Made by a program: the position numbers and the translations under genes. The notes under the pieces are model-generated. The model was not told where the DNA came from and did not search any database. It saw only the letters and a list, made by a program, of their open reading frames with translations. Shown here one piece after another: positions 17,481 through 38,406 of a stretch of DNA of 48,530 nt; position 1 is the stretch's first letter, and each line of letters begins with the position of its first letter. The DNA is from an uncultured Clostridia bacterium (GTDB lineage Bacteria > Bacillota > Clostridia > TANB77 > CAG-508), in the NCBI GenBank assembly GCA_947630185.1, contig CANRGT010000013.1, positions 1-48,530 on the forward strand, given 5' to 3'.

Positions 17481-17677
17481 AAAAATCCCCCGCCTTAGCC
17501 GTAAGATGAATGAAATTTTAAGAGCCTGCTTTCACAGGTGGGTGTCTTGTTGAATGCTCCTGGGTTTCTTATAACATTTATATGGTATAAGCATACACGC
17601 CACATTCAAAGGCGGACTCCCGTTTAAAATTTGTTGGTTCTAAAATTCCAGTCTACACGCACTATGCAGGGATATTT
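17481..17677 (-). ncRNA. ssrS: probable 6S RNA
   Basis: A gene-free stretch of 197 bases folds by hand into the 6S layout. A long interrupted closing stem is built from AUCCCUGC with GCGGGGGAU, GUAGA with UCUUAC, and UGGAAUUUUAG with UUAAAAUUUCA. A large central bubble has a small hairpin (CCUG...CAGG) on its 3' side. An apical arm is closed by UUGAAUG with CAUUCAA. GAAUGUGGCG matches my memory of a conserved 6S segment. It has its own promoter and ends in GGGGGAUUUUU. 6S RNA sequesters the sigma-A holoenzyme. Family assignment needs a covariance-model search. Confidence 0.6.
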
Positions 17678-19740: not shown

Positions 19741-20145
19741 TTATATGTTATCTTTATTATCTTTGTTTTCCATATTTTCTGTTTTAACTTCGTTATCCTT
19801 GCTCTTTAACTCTTTTAAAATATTATCAATTTTAGCACCATAATCTAAAGAGTCATCTATTTCGAAATCAAGTTCTGGTGTGATTCTTAAGTTAATATTT
19901 TTTGCTATCTGGCTACGAATAAAACCAGATGATTCCTTTAAGCCTTCCATTGTTTTTGCATTACTTTTTGAATTTAATATACTAACAAAAATTTTAGCAT
20001 ACCTAAAATCTGGAGTTATCTTTACTTTTGTAACACTAACCAAACCTGTTACTTTTGAATTTTGAAGTTCAAAAGTAAGTATTCGGCTAATTTCTTTTTT
20101 AAGTTCTTCATTAACTCTATTTAATCTTGCCTCATTTTTAGGCAT
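19741..20145 (-). CDS. rbfA: 30S ribosome-binding factor RbfA
   Basis: Late 30S-subunit maturation factor with a KH-like fold. The start at 20145 (MPKNEARLNRVNEELKKE, 134 residues) is preferred because AGAAAGGA stands ten bases before it and it matches homologues; the frame opens at 20166. VTGLVSVTKVKITPDFRYAKIFVS and the ITPELDFEIDDSLDYGAKI stretch are diagnostic. The normal infB-rbfA adjacency is interrupted by a 180-bp structured repeat. The C terminus is a charged Asn/Lys/Asp tail. Confidence 0.94.
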   Translation of the reverse strand: MPKNEARLNRVNEELKKEISRILTFELQNSKVTGLVSVTKVKITPDFRYAKIFVSILNSKSNAKTMEGLKESSGFIRSQIAKNINLRITPELDFEIDDSLDYGAKIDNILKELKSKDNEVKTENMENKDNKDNI

Positions 20146-20206
20146 TTTCACTTCATCCTTTCTCATTTTTTATATATTATATCATTTTTTTAAGTTAATA
20201 TAATAT

Positions 20207-20386
20207 TAAATAAAAAATATAGTAGTTAGATAGCACCGCGTAGCGACCAAGCAAAGCTTCGCTTGTGAAGCTTTGTGCGATTGAAGCAGCCTTCTATGAT
20301 ATGTAATAAATTGTCGTTCTTACGGCAATTTATTACATAAAATGGCTGCGACAACAAGGTGCAATAACTACTATATTTTTTATTTA
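20207..20386. repeat. structured interspersed repeat, copy A (infB-rbfA gap)
   Basis: The element is bounded by a perfect 22-bp inverted repeat (20207-20228 with 20365-20386). Inside it GCACC pairs with GGTGC, CGC-GTA-GCG can form a mini-hairpin, and CAAAGCTTC pairs with GAAGCTTTG. GCAGCC (20286) pairs with GGCTGC (20344), enclosing ATGTAATAAATTG with CAATTTATTACAT (20301-20338). The plan recurs at 34208-34372 with compensatory changes. It lies within an operon, so it is transcribed with it. A copy of TAGTAGTTA from the outer arm recurs just outside at 20391. Confidence 0.85.
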
Positions 20387-20417
20387 TTTATAGTAGTTAA
20401 ATTTATAATTTTAAGCT

Positions 20418-23400
20418 CTATCTTTTAACTTCTTCCATAATGTAAAATTCCAAAGTATCTTCTTCTTTTACATCATCATATCCATCAATTTGAAGTCCAC
20501 ATTCAAAGCCCTTTGATACTTCTTTTGCATCGTCTTTGAAACGTTTTAAAGAAATAAGTTTTCCATCATGTATAACAACATTTTCACGTATTACACGTAC
20601 GCCTGCATTTCTTTCTACTTTTCCGTCTAATACATAAGCACCTGCAATTGTACCAACACCTGAAACTTTGAAGGTTTGTCTTACTACTGCATTTCCTATT
20701 ACTCTTTCTTCGTAGATTGGGTCTAACATTCCTTTCATAGCAGCTTCAACATCTTCTATTGCTTGGTAAATTACTGAGTATTGCTTAATTTCTACATTTT
20801 CTTTTTCTGCCATGTCTTTTGCAGTATTTACTGGTCTTACATTAAATGCAATAATTATGCATTTTCCTGCTTTTGCAAGTTGTACATCTGATTCTGTAAC
20901 TGCTCCTGCCACTGCATGAATAACTCTTACTTTTACTTCATCATTTGATAATTTTTCAAGTGATTGTTTTAATGCTTGTGCAGTTCCTTGTACGTCTGCT
21001 TTTACAATTATATTTAATTGTTTTAAGTTTTCGCTTTCCATTTTTTCAAATAGATTGCTTAATGTTACTTTACTGTTTTCGTTTATTGCATTTTCTCTTT
21101 CTTGGCGTTTTCTTCTTTCAATTAAGTGTTTTGCCATTTTTTCATCTTTTACTTCGTAGAAGGTGTCGCCTGCTTCTGGTACTTCTGTTAATCCCATTAC
21201 TTCTACTGGTGTAGAAGGTCCAGCTTTTTTAACTCTTTGACCTTTATCGTTTTTCATTGCACGAATTCTACCAATTGATTTTCCAACTACTATTGTGTCT
21301 CCCTCATCTAATGTACCTCTTTGTACTAAAATAGATGCGATTGGTCCTTTTGCTTTATCTAGTCTTGCTTCTATAACTGTTCCTTTTGCTTGTTTGTGTG
21401 GATTTGCTTTTAGTTCCTTCATGTCAGCTACTAATAATACCATTTCTAATAAGTTATCTATGTTTAACTTTTTCTTTGCAGAAATTGGAACATAGATGGT
21501 ATCTCCACCCCATTCTTCTGGAACTAATTCGTATTCCATTAATTCTTGTTTTATTTTGTCTATGTTAGCTCCTGGAAGATCTATTTTGTTTATTGCTACA
21601 ATTATTGGAATTTCTGCTGCTTTTGCATGGTTAATTGCTTCTACTGTTTGTGGCATAACACCGTCATCTGCTGCTACTACTAGGATTGCAACGTCTGTAA
21701 TTTGAGCACCTCTTGCACGCATAGCTGTAAATGCTTCGTGTCCTGGTGTATCTAAGAAAGTAATTTCTCTTCCTGCTATATTTACTTTGTATGCACCAAT
21801 ATGTTGTGTAATTCCTCCTGCTTCTCCTTCTATTACATTTGTACTACGAATTGCATCAAGAAGTGATGTTTTACCATGATCTACGTGTCCCATTACAACA
21901 ACTACTGGTGGCCTTGGCTCTAAGTCTTCACTTGAATCTTCTGTTTCGTCAAATAAAATGTCTTCTTCTTTTACTTCTTCTTTCTTATATGCTGTAATTC
22001 CAAATTCTTGTGCTACTAAAAATGCTGTATCAAAATCGATGCTATTATTTATTGTTGCCATAATTCCATAATTAAACAATTTTTTTATTACTTCTCCACT
22101 TGTTTTTTTCATTTCAGTAGCTAAATCTTTAACTGTAATGTTCTCTGGAATTTTTATTTCTTTTAATTCAAATATTTTTTGTTTATTTCTTTCTTCTTCT
22201 TTTTGTGGTTTACGTTTGTTTTTCTTTCCTCTTTCTGTTGTTAAATCATAGTAATCAAGCATTCCACCATCTTGCTCATTAAACATATATGATAGTCTAT
22301 CTACTTGTTTTAAGTCTTTTAATTTTCCTTCATTGAAGTTTTCGTCAAATCGGTCATTCTTCTTTGCCTTTGTTCCTTTTTTAGCTTTATTGTCTTCATA
22401 ACGATTTGCTTTTTCTTTGTCTATTGCTCTTGTGCTGATATCTCTTTTATCTTCTTTTTCAACTATTTCTGAAGAAATTATATCTTTAATGTTACGGTCA
22501 ATTCCACGGTTATCTAGAGGTCTATTTCCGTTTCTTCCAAAACCTCCCCTTTGATTATTTCCGTAAGCACTTTCGCCTTGACGACCACCAAACCTACCTT
22601 CTCCTTGGCGATTACCAAAACGATTATCTGCACCTTGACGACCTCCAAAACGATTGTCTCCATTTTGACGACTACCATCAAAACGATTATCTGTACTTTG
22701 ATGATTACCAAAATGATTATCTCCTTGACGTCCACGATTTTGGTTTTCTCCTGATTGACGATAGTTATTTGCTTGATTATTTTTATTATATTGTTTATTA
22801 TTGTTTTGATTATAACCATCTTCACGATTATAGCTATTTTGTCTGTTTTCAGAACGATTTTTATCAAAACCATTTGCTAATTTATTGTCTGCATTATTTT
22901 GATTTGATTTAACTTCTGCCTTATTTGTATTTGATTCGTTTTGTGTTACTCCATTTTTTTGTTCTACATTAATTGTTTCTGATTTATTTGCACTATTTTC
23001 TACCGTTTTAGTAACTTCTTTTTTAGCTTCTTCTTTTTTATTAGTTTTTAAACCAAATAGCTCACTAACTGTCATTGGCTTTACAGGTTGTTTTCTGTAT
23101 ACAATATTAAAATCTTGGTTTTTCTTTCTCTCAACAAAACCAACATCTTTTCTATCTACTCTATCTTCCTTTTTTGTTTCTTTATCTTCATCAGCTAAAA
23201 TCACTTCACGTCTAATAATGACTGGTGTAGTTTTTTGTTTTTCTTCTCTTTTATCTTTTTTATTTTCTTGTTTTTCTGTTTTTGCTTCTTTATTTTTCAT
23301 ATCTTGCTTATTTTCTTTTACTCCTTTATTTTGTTGTGTTCCTTTTTTTCCAAGGCTACTTTTTATTTTTTGTACTGCATCCTCTTCTATTGAACTCAAA

Positions 23401-23501
23401 TGACTTGTTACCTCCACTCCTAATTCTTTTGCTTTCGCTATTAGATCTTTGCTTTCTATTCCCAACTCTTTGGCAACTTCATGTACTTTTAACTTACCCA
23501 A
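20418..23501 (-). CDS. infB: translation initiation factor IF-2, with long low-complexity N region
   Basis: GTPase that places initiator tRNA on the 30S subunit. The 1027-residue protein starts with an IF2-N domain ([19 protein letters not shown]). A Lys/Glu-rich stretch follows, then an Asn/Gly/Arg/Gln-rich repeat region (about 225-335) with units like [10 protein letters not shown] second IF2-N domain precedes the G domain: GHVDHGKT near 534-541, [15 protein letters not shown]. Domains II to IV end in [11 protein letters not shown]. It overlaps ylxQ by 8 bp. The repeat region is longer and more Asn/Arg-rich than I expect for Clostridia. Confidence 0.97.
22530..22770 (-). repeat. degenerate coding repeat in infB N region
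   Basis: Units of roughly 30 bases encode variants of (D)NRFGGRQG ([40 protein letters not shown]). The nucleotide units resemble each other, including recurring 'ttgacgacc' and 'aaacgatta' on the plus strand. Unit number could vary between strains. Confidence 0.6.
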
Positions 23502-34207: not shown

Positions 34208-34372
34208 AAAAGAACAATATGTCTTTTGTGAAGTCACCGCGTAGCGTCCAAACGGAACGAAGTGAAGTGCGTTTGGAGCAACCAACATACTATGTAATAA
34301 ATTGTAGTCATACAATTTATTACATAAAAGGTTGCGTGGGCAAGGTGCAAACAAAAAACATATTGTTCTTTT
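34208..34372. repeat. structured interspersed repeat, copy B (arginase-pheT gap)
   Basis: Same plan as the copy at 20207. The outer stem is 15 bp (AAAAGAACAATATGT at 34208 with ACATATTGTTCTTTT at 34358), plus TTTTGT/ACAAAA. CACC (34235) pairs with GGTG (34344), and CCGCGTAGCG is identical. A CCAAACG/CGTTTGG hairpin follows. GCAACC (34278) pairs with GGTTGC (34330), enclosing the same TATGTAATAAATTGT hairpin (34291-34326). Stem sequences differ from copy A but pairing is kept. It lies between convergent gene ends. Confidence 0.85.
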
Positions 34373-38053: not shown

Positions 38054-38406
38054 AACAAAAAATCCATTTGCCCTATAACTTTTAGTATAGGACGAAATGG
38101 ATTCGTGGTACCACCTAATTTTATTAATATTTTTATATTAACCTCATTTATTGGCTGTAACGTAGCTAGCGTCTTTTCCTACTATTTTTCAAAAAAGAAC
38201 CTCAAAAGTGAAATTTCAATAAAAGTAGTAATAATAAACTTTCAGCTAATGTTTATCTCTCTTTCTTACCTTTTCTTTTATTTACTTTGCTTTTTCAAAG
38301 GTGTTTTTGTATTGTTTAATATTTTTGTTAATGCTTTTGTACTTGTTTAATACTTTTCTAATTTTTTTAATATTTTTGCTAATGTTTTTATTTGCTTTTT
38401 CTAATG
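38054..38406 (-). promoter_or_regulatory. T-box leader (tRNA-Phe responsive) of pheST
   Basis: The T-box antiterminator sequence GGTGGTACCACG lies at 38104-38115. It overlaps a terminator stem (AATCCATTTCGTCCTATAC with GTTATAGGGCAAATGGATT) followed by TTTTT (about 38054-38103). Upstream, AAAGAGAGA, GCTGAAAG and TTTCACTTTTGAG match Stem I features. The specifier is probably TTC at 38210-38212, a Phe codon fitting the downstream genes. Uncharged tRNA-Phe would favour read-through. The first ~110 bases of the transcript are A-rich and apparently unstructured. Confidence 0.88.

Follow-up and report, generated by a model that had tools for sequence, protein, structure and literature searches.

A dispersed hairpin repeat family in uncultured Clostridia with a conserved core and variable, complementary arms

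Comparison of an uncultured Clostridia genome (G000) with its relatives revealed many intergenic copies of a hairpin repeat, with insertion polymorphism between species and a conserved, asymmetric core. The hairpin repeat is a new family, built inside-out relative to REPINs in that its ends vary and its centre is conserved. With moderate confidence, and reasoning from sequence comparison, we regard it as a mobile DNA element, dispersed and probably non-autonomous, whose working form is folded DNA. The matched arms, the inversions and the strand polarity described below together point to single-stranded DNA during replication.

Copies, anatomy and distribution

Two copies lie in the window, that is, the whole 48,530-nt stretch of contig that was analysed (Table 1). 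Copy A is located between infB and rbfA; copy B is flanked by an arginase-family gene and pheT. With up to two mismatches allowed, CACCGCGTAGCG matches twice in the window, both times exactly (at 20234 and 34235; shuffle mean 0.04). An earlier sequence-only reading had noted a paired change in the inner stem, from GCAGCC/GGCTGC in copy A to GCAACC/GGTTGC in copy B (34278-34283 / 34330-34335), as well as 22 bp of perfect self-complementarity in the outer arms of copy A, and both are present in the sequence. The two strands of copy A fold with z-scores of -11.7 and -10.3, with 0 of 200 shuffles as good. Given its place between infB and rbfA, transcription of copy A is plausible; its modelled strand is antisense to both genes, so that the mRNA would carry the reverse complement.

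Table 1. Coordinates of the two copies and of the genes flanking copy A, numbered in the window
Feature	Position	Strand	Basis or remark
Copy A, whole element	20207-20386		perfect outer arms, basal stem, conserved core, inner stem, internal hairpin
Copy A outer arm, 5' side	20207..20228	+	22-bp perfect inverted repeat
Copy A basal-stem CACC strand	20234..20237	+	partner 20358-20361; fold; helix 3 covaries (42 sequences)
Copy A conserved GCGTAGCG	20238..20245	+	kept across the family
Copy A second hairpin region (divergent variant) and TTGA(A/G)GC-like entry to inner stem	20246..20285	+	fold; comparison with other copies
Copy A inner stem P3, 5' side, GCAGCC	20286..20291	+	helix 8 covaries
Copy A optional A/T-rich internal hairpin	20300..20339	+	18-bp arms, 94% complementary; several copies lack it
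Copy A internal hairpin arms	20300-20317 / 20322-20339		inverted repeat
Copy A inner stem P3, 3' side, GGCTGC	20344..20349	+	helix 8 covaries
Copy A conserved GACAACAAG	20350..20358	+	GCGACARCAAG: 24/24 genome matches inside model hits
Copy A basal-stem GGTG strand	20358..20361	+	fold; covariation
Copy A outer arm, 3' side	20365..20386	+	22-bp perfect inverted repeat
Copy B, whole element	34208-34372		same plan as copy A, paired changes
Copy B outer arm, 5' side	34208..34229	+	
Copy B core, CACC to GGTG	34235..34347	+	internal hairpin 34291-34326
Copy B outer arm, 3' side	34351..34372	+	one C.A mismatch with 5' arm
rbfA, downstream of copy A	19741..20166	-	TIGR00082, 114.6 bits
infB, upstream of copy A	20418..23501	-	TIGR00487, 824 bits

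The two elements of the earlier reading proved to be members of a much larger set. BLAST with copy A found many relatives within the same genome, and a covariance model built on 11 copies found at least 35 copies there (E < 1e-4), a lower bound in that 150 of 2,629 first-look candidates were scored. This rules out a chance resemblance of two copies. The two weakest-scoring of these copies look truncated, and all 34 places examined in G000 are intergenic. Rfam gave nothing over the element at the gathering threshold and, at a relaxed threshold, best scores of 26 bits against a cut-off of 60 and 17.7 against 75, which rules out a known RNA family and agrees with the earlier failure to place the repeat in one. 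Two other stretches of the window do exceed Rfam gathering scores, a T-box leader upstream of genes including pheT (38085-38307, minus strand) and 6S RNA (17483-17675, minus strand).

Elements are about 100-180 bp long. Outermost are A/T-rich arms of ~20 bp that differ among copies yet are complementary, followed inward by a covarying 4-bp basal stem (CACC/GGTG, TGAC/GTCA, TGTC/GACA, GTTC/GAAC and others) and by a conserved core of the form GCG(C/T)AGCG ... CAA(A/G)CG ... AAG(T/C)GCG. At the centre TGGAGC and GCGACA enclose the inner stem with an apparent tandem G-A step, and an internal hairpin (TATGTAATAAATTGT) is optional among copies. REPIN hairpins have a GT(A/G)G tetranucleotide at their foot; among the copies here, some carry GTAG ahead of the basal stem and others different NNAG forms. 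The list of invariant parts drawn up from two copies had therefore to be shortened, since CACC/GGTG covaries and the TATGTAATAAATTGT hairpin can be missing; what stays with more copies is GCG(C/T)AGCG, CAA(A/G)CG, AAG(T/C)GCG, TGGAGC and GCGACA..CAAG, each with exceptions. Across 595 copy pairs in G000, the core averages a pairwise identity of 0.85 and the arms 0.60. Rather than being unrelated, as had been thought, the arms of different copies are divergent versions of one A/T-rich arm.

This gradient bears on the idea of an ordinary MITE of some insertion sequence, whose terminal inverted repeats would be the arms. Inverted ends, a size of 100-180 bp, many copies and insertion polymorphism all fit such an element, but its ends are here the least conserved part and its centre the most, the aligned empty sites described below show no target-site duplication, and half-elements are ruled out, as all 24 matches of one 3' core motif fall inside model hits. 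We consider an ordinary MITE unlikely, and the earlier rejection of a MITE with fixed ends holds, in that the arms vary with compensation. ERIC, RUP and Correia repeats have conserved ends, whereas the ends of the hairpin repeat are its most variable part; bcr1 is a further MITE-like repeat of bacteria. In the available parts of PMC2229807, these MITE-like repeats share with it their size, intergenic location, inverted ends and predicted secondary structure.

A further likeness is to REPINs and REP sequences, which in the portions available of PMC3116915, PMC3733652 and PMC6006769 are likewise small, intergenic, hairpin-forming, dispersed in one genome and subject to compensatory changes. They are mobilised by RAYTs and have been proposed, by analogy to IS608, to move as single-stranded DNA (PMC3116915, PMC6006769, in the same portions). 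As described there, a REPIN has conserved ends and a middle that covaries, while the hairpin repeat has variable outer arms (0.60) and a conserved centre (0.85), its arms being ~20 bp, A/T-rich and set around a branched core.

With the 11-copy model the close congeners G009 and G013 yielded 26 and 37 copies, respectively, and 20 genomes from four other families of the order yielded none. A second model, built on 42 diverse copies, gave hits in 42 of the 117 genomes that were sampled within the family, in 19 of 39 genera, and, across the order, in 57 of 191 sampled genomes, all 57 again within that family. Detected copy number ranges from 0 to 37 within one genus, absence meaning no hit in an incomplete assembly. 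An exact core pattern recovered 52 stretches; the named records are uncultured Clostridia assemblies, most with 'Lapin' (French for rabbit) in the isolate name, from which we infer rabbit-derived samples. Two exact core patterns had no match in viral contigs, nor did one copy in a blastn search of plasmid and phage records, and we rule out carriage by phages or plasmids on these searches. Word-based literature searches of open-licence papers found no description of this hairpin repeat family.

Covariation and the scarcity of G-U pairs

The earlier reading had proposed a structured interspersed repeat with compensatory stems, to be followed up by a covariance-model search of the genome and related Clostridia and by a covariation test. 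The searches gave the copy numbers above for G000, G009 and G013, and the test was likewise positive. In an alignment of 42 diverse copies, 92.1% of cells are paired and 26 of 37 pairs have changed on both sides, the alignment being fitted to the model so that absolute pairing figures lean towards structure. The covariation score was 0.484, compared with 0.152 in shuffles, and 0 of 500 shuffles reached the observed values; sliding the stem partners of the same alignment against each other abolished the signal.

Covariation of this kind would ordinarily argue for an RNA. As a control we used 6S RNA of the same clade. G-U occupied 2 of 788 cells in P1 (outer plus basal stems) and 2 of 246 cells in P3 (inner stem), as against 173 of 1485 in 6S RNA (27 of 30 sequences used, two loci being cut by contig ends and one a partial match). 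Restricted to pairs with at least two Watson-Crick types, the figures were 2/754 for P1, 1/197 for P3 and 12/348 for 6S RNA (Fisher p of 4e-5 for P1 and 0.04 for P3). In a second set of 34 copies the counts were 8/668 for P1 and 0/204 for P3. Mismatches in P1 showed no consistent preference for wobble pairs, with 2 G-U and 12 A-C in the first set and 8 G-U and 2 A-C in the second. Proposed P2 pairs held 59 G-U, 16 A-C and 46 other non-pairs in 355 cells, and P2 is poorly supported. Where a stem is maintained for pairing in RNA, G-U should be tolerated on the strand that is transcribed, and its near-absence therefore indicates covariation that is not RNA-like. Nor does the hairpin repeat resemble GTAG-REP stems in this respect, where GT pairing is often observed according to the available text of PMC3733652.

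A structured RNA, either cis-acting or small, with stems kept by selection on pairing, is in our judgement improbable. It would account for the strong covariation against both controls, for the conserved core with its apparent tandem G-A step, for the very stable fold and for the location of copy A between infB and rbfA. It accords poorly with covarying stems that, unlike 6S RNA, nearly lack G-U, and with outer-stem mismatches in which G-U does not consistently exceed A-C. As detailed below, 23 of 57 ortholog pairs show an inverted core, at tandem sites the modelled strand is mostly antisense (51/61 and 22/29; the opposite strand could be the RNA), and orientation tracks inferred replication at convergent sites. 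Of the two options left by the sequence-only reading, a structured RNA or a cruciform DNA element, these observations speak against the former. A resemblance to ribozymes or retrons, suggested by motif likeness, was dropped. The family is a trap for RNA discovery, since covariation alone would file it as non-coding RNA, and a simple test of DNA versus RNA is whether G-U is nearly missing by comparison with a genuine RNA of that clade.

Inversions between matched arms

The 36 places compared from G000 included one that proved to be of a different repeat family; G009 and G013 supplied 58 of their 63 copies, and orthologous sites were matched through both flanks (mean flank identity 94.8%). Among 57 ortholog pairs, 34 have the same orientation and 23 are inverted (same/inverted 13/5 for G000-G009, 13/9 for G000-G013 and 8/9 for G009-G013). 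One tandem locus (L092/L108/L122) contributes 8 of the 57 pairs, and without it 30 are the same and 19 inverted (n=49). At this locus G000 (L092:880-1103) and G009 (L108) have two same-strand tandem elements, the weaker-scoring apparently truncated, and G013 has a single, inverted element. At the base level the outer arms are intact and the core and inner linkers are reversed between them, over segments of about 60-130 bp. For example, the core of copy B is inverted between its arms in G013, while copy A has the same orientation in G009. In another example (L035/L124) the inverted piece takes an arm mismatch along, so that the switch point falls within about the outermost 13 bp. All these genomes are fragmented assemblies, and the inversions, like the apparent core exchanges below, are known from assembled sequence, not from reads.

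A flipping segment between inverted repeats, with both orientations seen between species in those 23 of 57 pairs, is also what a recombinase-driven inverton switching its neighbouring genes would give, and resolvase-family genes occur in 22 of 23 genomes. We find this reading very improbable: the arms differ among copies, so that one recombinase would hardly recognise them; convergent genes flank 11 of 49 unique sites; the genome G117 has 11 element hits and no resolvase hit; and 28 of 33 copies share one orientation.

The arms themselves carry a record of correction. Between orthologous copies 926 arm pairs are unchanged, 46 show a one-sided change, 12 a two-sided change with Watson-Crick pairing kept and 2 a two-sided change otherwise; some events enter these counts through two genome pairs, and poorly aligned copies (L052/L110 and L092) account for a few of the one-sided changes. 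Set aside in this comparison were 100 arm positions that had no aligned partner and 2 pairs lacking a usable arm. The 14 two-sided changes compare with about 1.4 expected if the sides mutated independently, and their being outnumbered by one-sided changes indicates that arm correction is slow.

Template switching between inverted repeats both homogenises arms and inverts spacers, according to the available part of PMC8604942, and in the corresponding part of PMC8794818 it has been proposed to create and maintain perfect stems. Both products of such quasipalindrome mutation, arm homogenisation and spacer inversion, are seen here, although in the accessible text of these papers it is a mutational process rather than an element family, and the spacer inversions published for yeast genes span a few bp rather than the 60-130 bp of the hairpin repeat. 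The earlier claim that pairing is selected over sequence is consequently not proven, since template switching as described in that part of PMC8604942 also yields matched arms together with spacer inversion; arm matching by selection plus compensation could nonetheless contribute. With its arm matching and its inversions of ~100 bp between species, the family looks like a natural, many-copy record of bacterial template switching.

At three orthologous sites (L048/L114, L045/L109 and L115/L123, among G000, G009 and G013) long-form cores stand opposite short-form cores, at L048/L114 between the same arms. It is as if cores had been exchanged between copies at these sites, or the assemblies were chimeric there.

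Orientation, mobilisation and empty sites

With genes called as simple open reading frames, copies flanked by tandem genes have the modelled strand antisense to those genes in 17 of 22 cases in G000, 15 of 16 in G009 and 19 of 23 in G013 (51/61); at 33 unique tandem sites the modelled strand is always antisense at 24, mixed at 9 and always sense at none. To relate orientation to replication, whose direction was inferred from GC skew and gene strand, we used contexts of up to 12 kb per side for 33 of the at least 35 G000 copies, the two weakest being omitted. The gene-strand majority agreed with the leading direction from GC skew in 33/33 contexts. Orientation was opposite to the inferred leading direction in 28/33 (p 7e-5), comprising 19/24 tandem and 9/9 convergent or divergent sites.

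The bias is weaker outside G000. For 34 hits in other genomes, orientation was opposite in 22/30 with clear skew (p 0.016) and in 3/5 at convergent or divergent sites, and further genomes had the element antisense to genes at 22/29 tandem sites (p 0.008). The set from these further genomes, 50 loci in all, gave 26/37 opposite overall and 6/10 at convergent or divergent sites when judged by 3-kb skew. Of its 19 convergent or divergent loci, 17 were examined in larger contexts (the other two, on short contigs, were omitted); 14 were clear and 10/14 opposite (p 0.18). Five of the 14 were reclassified as tandem (2/5 opposite), leaving 8/9 opposite at truly convergent sites, a post hoc class refined after the larger contexts. 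Convergent sites of clear direction across the three sets are 8/8 (G000), 1/2 and 8/9 opposite, pooling to 17/19 (p 0.0007), or to 16/18 (p 0.001) without L268, which is the same site as L087 and is unclear on the full contig. As transcription gives no direction at convergent sites, the bias seen there indicates that it follows replication rather than transcription. The five G000 copies that have the rare orientation all face the other way in one congener or more, which is what the dilution of an initial bias by flips would produce. Folding predicted with DNA parameters differs between the strands: in 33 of 34 copies the core is slightly more stable as the modelled strand than as its complement (means -18.1 and -16.6 kcal/mol), an asymmetry that could matter to an enzyme or a polymerase.

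An orientation bias against inferred fork direction, together with the intergenic position of all 34 examined G000 places, might also reflect a replication-polarity signal that serves the host, with hairpins recognised by a protein of the fork, of restart or of segregation, and with selection against flips. We doubt this reading, as detected copies range from 0 to 37 in one genus, sites are polymorphic and flips are common.

For the mobile folded-DNA element that we favour, we postulate that during fork passage one strand would fold on its arms and the polymerase would switch template between them. Such a switch would copy one arm onto the other, keeping complementarity while the sequence drifts, and would sometimes copy the core in reverse, giving an inversion. 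New copies would arise strand-specifically through single-stranded DNA at the fork, in a REPIN-like manner, which would generate the orientation bias, and later flips would dilute it. The lagging-strand template would then carry the minus strand of the core, and the conserved core may be the recognition structure of an enzyme.

We looked for such an enzyme among known families. The Y1 transposase domain (PF01797), required by the REPIN/RAYT system and found in neither G000 nor G013, was also missing from G073 and G114, all four copy-rich, in a search of 27 genomes; it is present in 9 of 13 copy-rich genomes and in 12 of the 14 in which no copies were detected. A search of 23 genomes for RVT_1 gave no hit in G009 or G117, and G117 is also the one copy-bearing genome noted above without a resolvase hit. 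Presence of these enzymes and copy number were unassociated (27, 23 and 23 genomes for Y1 transposase, reverse transcriptase and resolvase), and mobilisation by a resident member of any of the three was rejected. IS200/IS605 elements such as IS608 and ISDra2, and their non-autonomous derivatives, are not known to have long complementary ends. Their transposase family, PF01797, is absent from the search results for several copy-rich genomes here, and their replication-strand-biased insertion is matched at the level of the orientation of resident copies (28/33, 22/30 and, at convergent sites, 17/19 or 16/18). A bolder idea, to which we give little credence, is a class of selfish DNA needing no transposase, in which hairpin-induced template switching would repair the arms, flip the core and copy the element strand-specifically to new sites on the lagging-strand side. 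The orientation bias makes the spread of small palindromic DNA testable, with some of the copy-richest genomes having no detected Y1 (RAYT-type) enzyme.

Insertion polymorphism was examined by searching G009, G013 and G014 with the flanks of 14 sites, 11 of which were aligned. Neither arm is present at L032, L034 and L090 in G013 or at L041 and L089 in both G009 and G013, and these sites are the best candidates for true empty sites. At L031, L043, L050, L054 and L056 one arm, whole or partial, is left in G009, G013 or G014, and at L091 in G013 both arms are kept and the core is gone. Several 'empty' sites with exactly one arm look like deletions. No target-site duplication is visible in the 11 filled/empty alignments, in which A/T-rich DNA makes boundaries ambiguous, and the absent stretches usually reach ~9-35 nt of A/T-rich flank past the perfect arms (little at L090); the two together leave the transposed unit undefined. 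A pre-existing palindromic target is ruled out by the five sites without either arm in at least one congener. That the arms are inverted copies of the target, as one-arm empty sites might suggest, is less likely, since in several cases nearby flank is lost too, in the manner of a deletion.

Several orthologous sites hold other sequences. The G009 site orthologous to L032 (L217, contig C11, 10500-15600) has ~4.5 kb of extra DNA with a 1227-aa open reading frame, in which the covariance model found no element. At the site of copy A, G013 has the 3' outer arm as the sole arm present, plus an unrelated hairpin repeat. Across the genus this rbfA-infB spacer (window 20167-20417) contains different palindromic repeats in different species, including GGGACGTCCC-type REP-like units and other hairpins, or almost nothing, and looks like a repeat hotspot. 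A second repeat family of similar plan occurs at L094:1001-1141 (G000 contig C25) and in the G013 rbfA-infB spacer (L150, L178), with A/T arms AATAATATAATATTTTT and a core of GGCTGTGGGGACC, TACAGTCTGT / ACAGACTGT and GCGAAGTAGGG that is unlike the core of the first. Lastly, the L034 element of G000 lies between convergent genes, and the orthologous G014 site (L205) shows what looks like an ordinary terminator hairpin, AATGATTC..GAATCATT with T's after it; elements may thus sit at or replace terminators.
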